Source: Flavobacterium phragmitis (GTDB taxonomy: Bacteria > Bacteroidota > Bacteroidia > Flavobacteriales > Flavobacteriaceae). From it: 64,000 bases of DNA. The stretch spans positions 62,001 through 126,000 of the forward strand of contig NZ_FOMH01000013.1 of assembly GCF_900112575.1 (NCBI RefSeq), given 5' to 3'. Each line of letters starts with the position of its first letter. Position 1 is the stretch's first letter. The notes under the pieces were generated by a model. The model made no database searches. It was given only the letters and a program-made list of their open reading frames with translations, and had not been told where the DNA came from. Shown piece by piece: positions 34,704 through 60,836 of the stretch. The position numbers and the translations under genes are program-made.

Positions 34704-35147
34704 TTATTTGTCAATTTTAATAAAATCCTCTTTCAGATTAAATTTCAATTCTAATCCATTAGTCAGTTTTGTTTCATAACCAGAAGTTCCAATTTCTATT
34801 TTGGTTACTTTTTCCTTTGGGAAATTTGTTTTGATATAAGAAGCAATCTTTTTCGGAATAACAGATTTTGGAATTTTATCATTTTTACCATCCACTTCTT
34901 TCCAGTTTCCTTTTTTGTCAAATTCAATTTCAAGCTGTTTGTCATATTGAACTTTGTATTCTGTAGAAAAGATTTCTTTTTCTTCTAAAATATAACTCGG
35001 TTTTTTTGAGCCAAAATGAGTTTTTAAGAAAGCTTGTGCGTTTGCAGGTAAAGCTTCTTTTTTAATTATCGTTTTTTGCGCATTCGCAGAAATCCCAAAT
35101 AGAAATCCCATAATTAAGTAAACGGTCAGTTTTAATTTCGTTTTCAT
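34704..35147 (-). CDS. Periplasmic PepSY-like protein
   Basis: A 147-residue exported protein. The signal peptide ends at ISANAQ (residue 23). Two repeats of a PepSY-like pattern follow, each about 60 residues (ALPANAQAFLKTHFGSKKPS, then VIPKKIASYIKTNFPKEKVT). This matches the Bacteroidetes PepSY-like (DUF2874-type) family, which lacks a known enzyme activity and is thought to bind proteins or peptides. It stands alone, antisense to its neighbours and inside the inverted repeat pair. Confidence 0.8.
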   Translation of the reverse strand: MKTKLKLTVYLIMGFLFGISANAQKTIIKKEALPANAQAFLKTHFGSKKPSYILEEKEIFSTEYKVQYDKQLEIEFDKKGNWKEVDGKNDKIPKSVIPKKIASYIKTNFPKEKVTKIEIGTSGYETKLTNGLELKFNLKEDFIKIDK

Positions 35148-56659: not shown

Positions 56660-57022
56660 TTAATAAGGGCAATGTCGGCAGTTATTTCCACAGCAGGTTC
56701 CTCTTTTTAAATGGTACCAGGTTTTAAAAACCATATTTCCATTTTCGATATAATAATCAATGCCTTCAATTAAAGTGTTTGTTTTGGGTAAAGAAGTCGC
56801 TTTGTTTTTAGGAGCGTTTGACGGATTTATGGTTTCTACATAGGCATCAATTTTGTCTTCGCAGGCTTCTTTAAAACAGGTCGGACAAAGGCAATCCCCT
56901 CCTTCAGAAAGAGAAAAAATGGGCGGGTAGTCGTTGCACCAGCATTTTTTTTCTACAGATATATCTCCACAGCTGAACTGAGATTCACAGCTAGAGCAAA
57001 TTTTCATTTTTGTGGTATTCAT
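56660..57022 (-). CDS. Cysteine-rich CWC and DUF5522 fusion protein
   Basis: A 120-residue protein with two known small domains. Residues 1-60 form a cysteine-rich CWC domain (ICSSCESQFSCG, KKCWCNDYPPIFSL, CLCPTCFKEACEDK), likely a zinc site. Residues 80-120 form DUF5522 (EGIDYYIENGNMVFKTWYHL, then KRGTCCGNNCRHCPY). Other bacteria carry these as separate genes. Function is unknown. The open frame runs 28 codons further upstream, but the ATG at 57020-57022 matches the conserved start. It lies divergent to btuF with 94 bases between. Confidence 0.82.
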   Translation of the reverse strand: MNTTKMKICSSCESQFSCGDISVEKKCWCNDYPPIFSLSEGGDCLCPTCFKEACEDKIDAYVETINPSNAPKNKATSLPKTNTLIEGIDYYIENGNMVFKTWYHLKRGTCCGNNCRHCPY

Positions 57023-58260: not shown

Positions 58261-59289
58261 TTGGCGAATAAAAAACGAAATACCATTTTATTTGTCATTT
58301 TGGCGTTGGGGCTTTTGCTGATGTTTTTCGCAAGCATTAGTTTAGGTTCTGTTATGATTCCTGTAAAAGATGTTTTTACTAGTTTGACTGGAGGGCATGC
58401 GACAAAATCGACCTGGGAATATATTATTATAAATTATCGCCTGCCAAAAGCCATTACGGCAGTTTTGGTTGGAACGGGTCTTTCAATCAGCGGACTTTTG
58501 ATGCAGACTTTATTTAGAAATCCGCTTGCCGGACCTTATGTTTTAGGATTGAGTTCGGGAGCAAGTTTAGGAGTTGCTTTTGTGATTTTAGGAGCAGGAT
58601 TTTTGCCTTCTTTTTTAAGTGTGATAGCCTTGTCTTCTTACGGAATTGTTTTAGCCTCTACAGCCGGAAGTACATTAGTTTTACTTTTGGTTTTAGTAGT
58701 TTCACAAAGATTGCGTGACACGATGGCCATTCTGATTGTGGGATTAATGTTTGGAAGTTTCACCACAGCGATTGTAAGCGTTCTGACTTATTTCAGCACA
58801 GCTGAACAGCTTCAGAAATTCACTTTCTGGTCAATGGGAAGTCTAGGGAATCTTTCATGGCCAACGATTGGCATTTTGACAACTTGTGTCACAATCGGTT
58901 TGCTTTTAAGTGCCAAAAGTATAAAGCCTTTAAATGCTTTGCTTCTTGGAGAAAATTATGCAAAAAGCATGGGTTTAAACTTTAAGCAGGCTAGATTGGT
59001 AATCATATTTGCAACGAGTATATTATCTGGAGCGATTACGGCATTTGCAGGCCCGATAGCTTTTATTGGATTAGCGGTTCCTCATATTGCCAAACTGACT
59101 TTTCAAACCAGTAATCACACAGTATTATTTTGGAGTACTTTATTTTTTGGTTCGATTATAATGTTGTTTTGCGATATTGTTTCGCAAATGCCAGGATTTG
59201 AGGTTACGCTTCCAATAAATGCGATAACGTCTATTATTGGTGCTCCGGTTGTAATTTGGCTTTTAGTAAGGAAAAGGAATTTTCAGTAA
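58261..59289 (+). CDS. FecCD family ABC permease (BtuC-like)
   Basis: A 342-residue inner-membrane permease with about ten helices. Family features are YRLPKAITAVLVGTGLSISG, LFRNPLAGPYVLGLSSGASL and GPIAFIGLAVPHIAKL near the end. It moves the substrate from BtuF inward using the BtuD ATPase. No ATG lies at the start; translation appears to begin at TTG 58261, one base after the btuF stop. The partner ATPase gene is 660 bases further on, with a boxed nuclease-like gene between. Confidence 0.88.
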   Translation: MANKKRNTILFVILALGLLLMFFASISLGSVMIPVKDVFTSLTGGHATKSTWEYIIINYRLPKAITAVLVGTGLSISGLLMQTLFRNPLAGPYVLGLSSGASLGVAFVILGAGFLPSFLSVIALSSYGIVLASTAGSTLVLLLVLVVSQRLRDTMAILIVGLMFGSFTTAIVSVLTYFSTAEQLQKFTFWSMGSLGNLSWPTIGILTTCVTIGLLLSAKSIKPLNALLLGENYAKSMGLNFKQARLVIIFATSILSGAITAFAGPIAFIGLAVPHIAKLTFQTSNHTVLFWSTLFFGSIIMLFCDIVSQMPGFEVTLPINAITSIIGAPVVIWLLVRKRNFQ

Positions 59290-59315: not shown

Positions 59316-59940
59316 TTTTTTAAACACATAGAAACATAGATTTCTATTTTTTTTTTGAAAGTTGATTTGAAAATTTACTAGTAAATTAAAACATAGACTT
59401 TGCGAAAATGGAACATGTTCTTTTAAAAATTAAGATAATGATTACTCAGAAATATTTAGATGAATTGACTTTCAATGTTATAGGAGCATGCATACAAGTA
59501 CATAAAGCTATTGGAAGAGGATTACTCGAAAGTGTTTATCATGAATGTTTAAAAGAAGAATTGAGTTACAGGAAAATAAATTTTGTCACAGAAATGAATG
59601 TGCCCTTGATTTATAGGGATAAAGAATTAAATGCTAATTTAAAATGTGATTTGTTTATCGAAAATTGCTTAGTCGTAGAATTGAAAGCAACATTAGAACT
59701 AAATCCTATTTGTGAAGCACAGTTAATGACTTATATGAAACTCTTAAAAGCGCCAAAAGGTATTTTGATTAATTTTAATTGTTTTAATATTTTCAAAGAA
59801 GGTCAAAAAACATTCGTAAATGAATATTACAAATTACTCCCAAAGATTTAAGCTCAAAAGCTATGTGTTAATTTACTAGTAAATTTTCAAATCAACTCTC
59901 AGAAAAAGGAAAAAAACTATGTTTCTATGTGTTTAAAAAA
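59316..59940. mobile_element. 625-base unit: GxxExxY gene boxed by about 80-base inverted repeats
   Basis: Left arm 59316-59396 and right arm 59861-59940 are inverted copies. The outer 24 bases are identical, a T-rich middle of about 17 bases varies, and the inner 40 bases agree at 38. Each arm holds a perfect 16-base palindrome (59372-59387 and 59870-59885; AATTTACTAGTAAATT). The arms enclose one ORF. The unit splits the btuC and btuD genes, which normally adjoin. No target duplication is evident. I call it a mobile or formerly mobile cassette by inference; mobility is not shown. Confidence 0.6.
59438..59851 (+). CDS. GxxExxY protein (PD-(D/E)XK nuclease-like, PDDEXK_3)
   Basis: A 137-residue protein. 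It carries the name-giving motif in GRGLLESVYHECLKEEL (G, E, Y spaced as GxxExxY), preceded by YLDELTFNVIGACIQVHKAI. The nuclease-like core follows: CDLFIENCLVVELKA, with Asp and Glu-x-Lys in PD-(D/E)XK spacing, and AQLMTYMKLLKAPKGILINF. The family is common in Bacteroidetes, often in several copies per genome, and its role is unknown. The frame opens at ATG 59408, but ATG 59438 fits the family start better. It sits inside the inverted repeats and interrupts the btuC-btuD pair. Confidence 0.88.
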   Translation: MITQKYLDELTFNVIGACIQVHKAIGRGLLESVYHECLKEELSYRKINFVTEMNVPLIYRDKELNANLKCDLFIENCLVVELKATLELNPICEAQLMTYMKLLKAPKGILINFNCFNIFKEGQKTFVNEYYKLLPKI

Positions 59941-59948
59941 TAACCACA

Positions 59949-60728
59949 ATGATTAGAAGTATCTTAAATACATCAAATTTAAATATCGGATATAAATCCA
60001 AGAAAGGTGTGACGACCATTGCCAAAGATCTGAACTTAAATCTGGATTCAGGAAAACTGATTACTTTAATAGGAGCAAACGGAATTGGAAAATCGACTTT
60101 ACTTCGGACTATAACAGGAATTCAAAAACCTTTATCAGGAAATGTTTATTTGAATGAAAAAGAGATTTCACATTATAAACCTTTGGAACTGGCGCAAAAT
60201 TTAAGTTTAGTTTTAACAGAAAAACTGCCTCCAAGTAGTCTTTCGGTTTTCGAATTAGTTGCGTTGGGTCGTCAGCCTTATACTAATTGGGTTGATAAAT
60301 TGTCTAATGAAGATGTTGTAAAAGTTCAGGAAGCAATGCAATTAACCCAAATAGAACACTTAGCTTCAAAAAAACATTTTCAAATTAGTGACGGACAATT
60401 ACAGAAAGTCTTAATTGCAAGAGCTTTGGCACAAGATACGCCACTGATTATTTTAGATGAACCTACAACGCATTTGGATTTATTGCATAAAGTTTCTTTG
60501 TTTAAATTATTGAAGAAATTAACACACGAAACTCAAAAGTGTATTTTGTTCTCAACACACGATATTGATTTGGCAATTCAGTTAAGTGACGAAATGATTA
60601 TTATGACACCGGAAAGTATTGTACAGGATCAGCCATGTAATTTAATTTCGAATGGCAGTTTTAATAATTTGTTCAAAGATGAACATATTATTTTTGATGC
60701 AGAAAAGGGGAAGTTTATTGTCAATTGA
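59949..60728 (+). CDS. B12-type ABC transporter ATPase (BtuD-like)
   Basis: A 259-residue ABC ATPase. Walker A is GANGIGKSTLL, the signature is QISDGQLQKVLIARAL (SDGQ instead of the common SGGQ), Walker B is LIILDEPTTHLDLL and the H-loop is FSTHDIDLAIQLS. It would power the BtuC permease. It starts 8 bases after the right inverted repeat of the GxxExxY unit, so its transcription has to pass through that unit or start in it. Confidence 0.88.
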   Translation: MIRSILNTSNLNIGYKSKKGVTTIAKDLNLNLDSGKLITLIGANGIGKSTLLRTITGIQKPLSGNVYLNEKEISHYKPLELAQNLSLVLTEKLPPSSLSVFELVALGRQPYTNWVDKLSNEDVVKVQEAMQLTQIEHLASKKHFQISDGQLQKVLIARALAQDTPLIILDEPTTHLDLLHKVSLFKLLKKLTHETQKCILFSTHDIDLAIQLSDEMIIMTPESIVQDQPCNLISNGSFNNLFKDEHIIFDAEKGKFIVN

Positions 60729-60739
60729 TTTCGACGCTT

Positions 60740-60826
60740 CCTGCAAGGTTTTCCAAACCTTGTAGGCTTAAATTTTAGATTTGGATTAAAAATAATATAC
60801 CTACAAGGTTTGGAAAACCTTGCAGG
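60740..60826. repeat. Inverted pair of the 27-base palindromic element
   Basis: Copies 60740-60766 and 60800-60826 are identical in inverted orientation (27 of 27). They lie between the convergent btuD and trmL genes and match the elements at 4757 and 5024. Confidence 0.85.
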
Positions 60827-60836
60827 AGCTCAGTAA

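Follow-up and report, generated by a model that had tools for sequence, protein, structure and literature searches.

Among described systems, the closest to the locus reported here are the REPIN/RAYT elements (TnpA_REP, or "REPtron"), in which a gene is flanked by a dispersed repeat that also occurs as gene-less, hairpin-capable inverted doublets; several such families can share a genome, each with its gene matched to its repeat (available excerpts of PMC3116915 and PMC6006769). The excerpt of PMC6006769 also describes a Bacteroidetes subclass of REPs with atypical structures. A second point of reference is the S23 family, whose ORFs occur in 23S rRNA intervening sequences (PMC4990558, in the part available). 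For GxxExxY proteins, the open-licence PMC literature searched gave neither a function nor a link to repeats; prior notice in preprints, subscription papers or NCBI family notes, which lie outside that literature, is possible.

The window, by which we mean the whole 64,000-nucleotide stretch of DNA analysed, belongs to a Flavobacterium phragmitis genome of 6.04 Mb in 24 contigs (G000). Between btuC and btuD it carries a unit of 625 bases with one ORF as its sole gene. The parts of this region, in window coordinates, are as follows.

58261..59289, + strand: FecCD/BtuC-type permease, upstream neighbour
59316..59940, + strand: the complete unit, lying in sense between btuC and btuD; it is the CACATAG repeat family's gene-bearing member
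59316..59339, + strand: left outer arm TTTTTTAAACACATAGAAACATAG, with an inverted copy at 59917-59940 (24/24 bases identical)
59372..59387, no strand: left inner palindrome AATTTACTAGTAAATT, perfect over 16 bases, counterpart of the covarying nnnCTAGnnn hairpin in gene-less copies
59388..59396, + strand: left inner unit AAAACATAG, counterpart of the inner ACACATAG in gene-less copies
59408..59851, + strand: ORF for a 147-aa GxxExxY protein with a modelled Cas4/RecB-like PD-(D/E)XK nuclease fold
59861..59869, - strand: right inner unit, reverse of AACACATAG
59870..59885, no strand: right inner palindrome AATTTACTAGTAAATT, perfect over 16 bases
59917..59940, - strand: right outer arm, inverted copy of 59316-59339
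59949..60728, + strand: BtuD/FecE-type ABC ATPase, downstream neighbour

The outer arm consists of CACATAG/AACATAG units in a row, and the inner arms (59350-59389 and 59868-59907) are inverted copies identical at 38 of 40 bases. The first-pass annotation had described these inverted arms, with a 16-base palindrome in each, correctly in every detail. A repeat finder recovered the identical arms, which scored 60.5 (locus L110) against a maximum of 15.0 in 100 dinucleotide shuffles, and the RNA fold of the whole unit had z = -10 against 20 shuffles. Between window positions 57000 and 62000, no Rfam match reached the gathering score. Directly after btuD, at 60740-60827, lies a further inverted repeat, CCTGCAAGGTTTTCCAAACCTTGTAGG, and similar hairpins occur elsewhere in the genomes G042 and G049.

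Profile searches assigned the ORF to TIGR04256 (GxxExxY; E 1.9e-36, 124.9 bits, cut-off 35) and to PF13366 (PDDEXK_3; E 1.8e-35, 122.3 bits, cut-off 22), the latter being its sole Pfam match. Neither Pfam nor NCBIfam gave it a transposase identity, that of a Y1 HUH transposase included, in agreement with the initial description of a single GxxExxY ORF in a unit without a transposase. Across 22 diverse sequences (alignment A1), residues E41, D81, E91, K93 and Y109 are invariant, with E91 and K93 forming an E91-x-K93 motif, and Q105 is nearly so. In a structure model of the window protein (pLDDT 90.4), the closest fold was that of Cas4 SSO0001 (4ic1), a match of moderate strength (Foldseek E 5.8e-4, TM 0.48-0.52, VIA Z 9.4). 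The remaining matches, at Z of 7.5 or lower, included HsdR, BglII, another Cas4 (4r5q), archaeal Holliday-junction resolvases and AddB; fold matches were for the most part DNA nucleases, and a fold common to them demonstrates no function. A sequence search for a solved structure returned none at E <= 10. With D81, E91 and K93 invariant and the fold as modelled, the protein has the PD-(D/E)XK core, and it models as a Cas4/RecB-like PD-(D/E)XK fold with its catalytic residues kept. Its nearest named relatives are Flavobacterium proteins at 89% identity and less. Against seven relatives the gene had dN/dS of 0.04-0.17 (dS 0.5-1.9, partly saturated), and btuC and btuD, compared between G000 and G042, had 0.04 and 0.09. 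The protein is under strong purifying selection.

The arms of the unit are dispersed throughout its own genome. A search with the whole unit returned one full copy among 121 matches, the rest being end pieces, many counted on both strands. The 18-mer core of the outer arm, AAACACATAGAAACATAG, has 126 copies (62 + 64) at up to 1 mismatch, and its reversed control pattern has 0. At up to 3 mismatches, 85 arm sites resolved into 37 inverted pairs and 13 single arms, usually in a form of about 135 bp; the stretches behind these counts were partly picked for holding pairs, and overlapping pairs within one cluster were counted. Most of 25 aligned gene-less doublets show the order outer arm, nnnCTAGnnn palindrome, inner ACACATAG, a loop of variable length, inner CTATGTG, a conserved AAGTGAAACGCCTTT and outer arm. 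The gene-bearing unit keeps this order, with the ORF in place of the loop and the palindrome in both halves. Orientation was sense for 12 gene-less doublets, antisense for 9 and other for 5 (n = 26). In several longer doublets the loop holds repeats of other families, two longer arm pairs have an interior that reads N, and nine other long spans contain other repeats (judged by eye, ORFs not listed). Repeats of one family inside the loops of another family's elements, at times as tandem runs, were also seen at L148, L309 and similar loci. Within 244 kb of the genome, a search with five strings from the units of four other GxxExxY genes gave 3 to 5 matches for two of them and none for the arm strings of L142, L069 and L143.

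Conservation takes different forms along the element. Across 26 gene-less copies, the small palindrome is preserved by two-sided changes in 5 of 5 pairs; compensatory change was found in 0 of 16 pairs of the outer stem and 0 of 4 of the inner stem. With the structure taken from this very alignment, covariation scored 0.092, compared with 0.055 for shuffles and no more than 0.047 after sliding. In all 6 folds of 5 elements, single strands folded more stably than their shuffles (z -4.4 to -7.6). The pattern agrees with structural conservation of the inner hairpin and sequence conservation of the outer arms, the latter as putative binding sites. The idea that the repeats are maintained as hairpin-type structures is supported for the inner palindrome, which covaries in gene-less copies; correction of imperfect palindromes during replication could be another source of the covariation pattern.

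We compared the btuC-btuD junction across relatives. The permease gene lies upstream of the ATPase gene in 24 of the relatives' 30 ATPase loci, and the statement that the two usually adjoin was a fair one. The gap between them is at most 2 bp in six genomes (G029, G046, G010, G007, G044 and G011), 15-180 bp in ten others without the full unit, and 799 bp in one. The gene-bearing unit stands at the junction in G000, G042, G057, G015, G006, G049 and G052. A decayed gene piece and the right arm remain in G054, apparent short repeats of other families occupy the site in G053, G008, G004 and G036, and by coordinates a GxxExxY relative also adjoins the ATPase gene in G040, G028, G032 and G046. The first-pass annotation had proposed looking for an empty site here and had named a gene carried by all relatives as evidence against its view; instead, the unit is present, decayed or absent. 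The gene copies of G006, G015 and G057 have internal stops, though those genomes hold 71-99 arm copies. Since the gene is found at btuC-btuD in many species, the gene-bearing form itself would seem to move rarely.

The gene-less doublets differ between related species. When 19 arm elements of G000 were sought in G042, 7 were present in the same orientation, 1 was inverted in place, 1 was rearranged, 5 were absent or replaced by another family, 2 were unclear and 3 could not be located within the stretches of G042 compared. The interior of the inverted element is 91% identical between G000 and G042 as the reverse complement and 57% as it stands. In-place inversion is what cruciform cutting and rejoining could be expected to give, and recombination between the arms could also yield it. 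No target-site duplication was readable at the sites without the element, where the flanks have diverged. Hairpin REPs of the RAYT type also differ in presence between related species (e.g., L309:7853-8089), and one site in G053 (L344, matching L309:5304) carries a different insert, by eye a small ORF between inverted AAAATGTGAAAT-like repeats.

The association between gene and repeat extends well beyond this locus. GxxExxY genes occur in 50 of 61 sampled genomes of the genus and in 152 of 296 genomes of the phylum. Within the genus, 74 of the 98 GxxExxY genes tested had an inverted repeat in their flanks, compared with 4 of 71 controls taken from the other genes of the own genome (p <= 0.01, dinucleotide shuffles). 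The 98 loci are a non-random choice from 211 genus matches: the top match in each of 30 genomes, 25 loci close to the window protein, and extra copies of selected genomes. Of the 24 genes below the arm threshold, several visibly have the same sort of units, and L077 and L120 are without them. Among named relatives, inverted arms flank 66 of 79 (one of the 80, L206, was left out as too short), and across the phylum they flank 23 of 30 loci, these being the best-scoring loci returned from 296 genomes, 152 of which have a match. Among distant plasmid loci, 6 of 8 matches were tested. Arms were significant in Bacteroides, Bernardetia and Gemmatirosa, the last belonging to another phylum and having long CCGCAGAGGACGCAGAG arms; at 0.01 they were not significant in Sphingomonas (p 0.095), a Fusobacteria record (0.045) or Treponema (0.21). 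Outside the phylum, one of four plasmid loci had significant arms. On a Sphingomonas parapaucimobilis plasmid (L386), a GxxExxY gene lies between fabD and fabG, with a CGCGAAG array seen upstream only. The strongest match among the control genes was another 147-aa ORF of the window, at 34704-35147, which lies between 42-nt inverted repeats of GATAATTAG-like units.

Throughout, the arms consist of short units arrayed at a spacing of about 8-12 bp, such as CACATAG, CATATAAG, CATTAAG, CGCAAAG, CACAGAG, CGCAGATT, CACGAATT and more, and the type of unit follows the type of protein. Over 75 of the 98 loci (arm p <= 0.02, core of at least 100 aa), arm similarity tracked protein similarity with a Mantel rho of 0.39, against a maximum of 0.15 in 2000 permutations. 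At the 58 loci with a paralog, the arms of the nearest protein in another genome were closer than those of the mean same-genome paralog in 58 of 58 cases and than those of the best paralog in 55 of 58. In the clade of the window protein, relatives at about 60-90% identity mostly have CACATAGnnACATAG-like arms, and those at 53-60% often have CATATAAG. This match is partly shared descent at the same site. Gene and repeat nearly certainly belong together, and it is likely that the protein recognises the repeat.

At the level of whole genomes, the two-unit CRCADAG sites are denser in the 50 genomes with GxxExxY than in the 11 without (p 6e-5); given genome size, the partial rho for this density was 0.48 with GxxExxY and 0.24 (p 0.06) with the number of RAYT genes. 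The effect for the density of the CACATAG 18-mer was weaker (p 0.013; partial rho 0.26, p 0.045), and all of these values are uncorrected for phylogeny. The seven copy-richest genomes (63-157 copies) all have a homologue of at least 72% identity, yet G040 and G028, with a 72% homologue, have 3 and 1 copies. Arm copies without a close homologue were found in G008 (39), G004 (37), G053 (25) and G054 (15), and G011, with no GxxExxY match, has 15 sites of the CATATAAG type; orphan repeats therefore exist. At least 8 CATATAAG sites were present in all 9 genomes assigned to that clade (p 0.0017 against the other 52), 6 of them assigned by arms and three (G015, G049, G046) on protein identity alone. 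Many other genomes match it too (G008 118, G004 71, G056 71), and CATATAAG has only partial support as a sharp marker of the clade.

GxxExxY genes also share a position relative to their neighbours. Both neighbours were on the same strand as the gene for 86 of the 94 genus loci that could be scored out of 98, against 85 of 167 control genes, whose neighbours were called by a somewhat different ORF rule (p 2.5e-12); the same held for 69 of 74 scored loci among the 80 named relatives and 21 of 28 among the 30 phylum loci. RAYT genes, treated by the GxxExxY ORF rule, were nearer background, with 16 of 26 in sense (26 of 27 scored). An unrelated family shows the GxxExxY layout: at 22 of 30 loci of TIGR02436 four-helix-bundle (S23-like) genes (L391-L420, the best-scoring ones returned), we found inverted unit arrays, made of CTAAG, TTAGAC, GTGATTAGT and others, and 26 of the 29 scored were in sense with both neighbours. 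As this family is unrelated, the layout need not mean nuclease-driven movement. RAYT-like genes themselves are common, with a Y1_Tnp (PF01797) match in 41 of 61 genomes and 12 matches in the own genome. Inverted arms flank 9 of 27 RAYT loci at p <= 0.01, by eye as GC hairpins such as TCCCGTAGGGA, with no unit arrays among them. Thirteen genomes have GxxExxY and no Y1_Tnp match, some of them rich in repeats.

Our preferred reading, which we hold with slightly better than even confidence, is that the unit belongs to a REPIN-like repeat family with a nuclease as its master gene instead of a Y1 transposase, and that this nuclease mobilises the doublets. The unit would be the master copy, with the GxxExxY gene in the loop between the two repeat halves, and the gene-less inverted doublets of about 135 bp would be its non-autonomous members. 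The protein would recognise short CACATAG-type units of its own family, the unit sequence being specific to each GxxExxY clade. Together with host replication and repair, the nuclease may cut, copy, remove or flip doublets in trans, probably acting on doublets in an extruded hairpin or cruciform state. The gene seems to depend on read-through and would persist where it lies in sense inside an operon, as between btuC and btuD. We infer that the nuclease moves or flips the repeats, and that binding, cutting and mobilisation are carried out by the protein, expressed by read-through. The first-pass annotation had proposed an undescribed cassette, perhaps moved by its own protein. Its mobile appearance, the tie between repeats and gene, and the existence of sites without the gene all stand; it is not a single private cassette, and movement by the protein is inferred. 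Arms lacking the gene and unlinked to it had been named as a point against the proposal. The letter of this is true, with 126 arm copies to one full unit, but the copies are not unlinked, as arm type tracks protein type. Gene-less arm copies are the dispersed form of the same element, and the unit is therefore the gene-bearing member of a repeat family.

Of the other explanations, one that we regard as unlikely, though worth serious attention, is that the protein binds and perhaps nicks the repeats for host or self-regulation (genome organisation, operon control or autoregulation) without moving them, their spread being ancient or due to host slippage. Strong purifying selection, residence at btuC-btuD in several species and outer arms conserved as sequence (0/16 compensatory pairs), as binding sites would be, all suit such a role. 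Related species nevertheless do not always share a doublet, and in one case its orientation is reversed; the several families with distinct units multiplied in each genome also look like spread. An action on RNA is less probable still: here the unit would resemble a 23S rRNA intervening sequence, the operon transcript forming a long stem with the ORF in its loop, with RNase III-type processing or a protein acting on RNA. Gene-less doublets in both orientations (12 sense, 9 antisense, 5 other), outer arms without covariation and fold matches that are mostly DNA nucleases weigh against it, despite the sense placement between co-directed genes (86/94 versus 85/167 controls), the stability of the unit's RNA fold (z = -10 relative to 20 shuffles) and the same layout in an S23-type four-helix family, S23 ORFs being found in rRNA intervening sequences (PMC4990558, in the part available).

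We think it very improbable that the GxxExxY gene is cargo of a MITE moved by another transposase, e.g., the Y1 transposases (RAYT) of the genus. These are certainly to hand, in 41 of 61 genomes and 12 times in the own genome, and the two longer arm pairs with an N interior leave room for other cargo. Against this, the hairpin REPs beside RAYT genes (27 loci) differ in sequence, there are genomes lacking a RAYT match that still have arm copies (e.g., G004 37, G053 25, G054 15), other repeats are what the remaining nine long spans contain as judged by eye, the arms match the GxxExxY clade, and the gene is under strong purifying selection. Hardly credible is a homing endonuclease targeting the btuC-btuD junction, for although a nuclease-like ORF, sites without the ORF and the same site in several species would agree with one, GxxExxY relatives adjoin many different genes, each with its own arms. 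Homing endonucleases are not known to have flanking dispersed repeats.

Beyond this family, a broader form of the preferred, nuclease-driven reading is possible but tentative, and we give it somewhat less than even weight. GxxExxY would be the nuclease-driven counterpart of REPIN-RAYT, common across Bacteroidota and extending to at least one further phylum, with each protein recognising its own arrays and doublets copied or flipped as hairpins. Because TIGR02436 genes are arranged in the same way, elements in which a small gene lies within inverted unit arrays and runs in sense with the genes on either side might then form a general, unnamed class. Linking GxxExxY to repeats that fill intergenic space would give both a testable role. 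It would also mean, if true, that enzymes with no relation to Y1 transposases can drive populations of REP-like repeats, and it would account for the very small "GxxExxY" and "four helix bundle" genes so often found within a single operon.

Compared with known systems, the GxxExxY protein has its modelled fold and catalytic residues in common with Cas4/RecB-type and Hjc nucleases. It differs from them in being 147 aa long, in having no adjoining helicase or integrase gene, in its tie to repeats and also in its cysteines: the diverse alignment A1 has no column of them that is fully or almost fully conserved, though two such columns exist among close relatives (alignment A2). Like a 23S rRNA intervening sequence, the locus has a small ORF in an element inserted within a transcribed unit (PMC4990558, in the part available), but the protein family is another one, gene-less DNA copies are dispersed, and the neighbours, btuC and btuD, code for proteins. 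The short inverted-repeat elements of about 135 bp without a gene recall MITEs, with the difference that the loci examined include no parent transposon with a transposase. The likeness to REPtrons lies in a gene flanked by a dispersed repeat and in gene-less inverted doublets with hairpin potential around the family. A typical REP is a hairpin with a 5' GTAG-type foot, which is absent from the arm of this unit; here the repeat is built from short direct units spaced at 8-12 bp, a PD-(D/E)XK nuclease takes the place of the Y1 HUH transposase, and the gene lies in sense between co-directed genes, as only 16 of 26 RAYT genes do.
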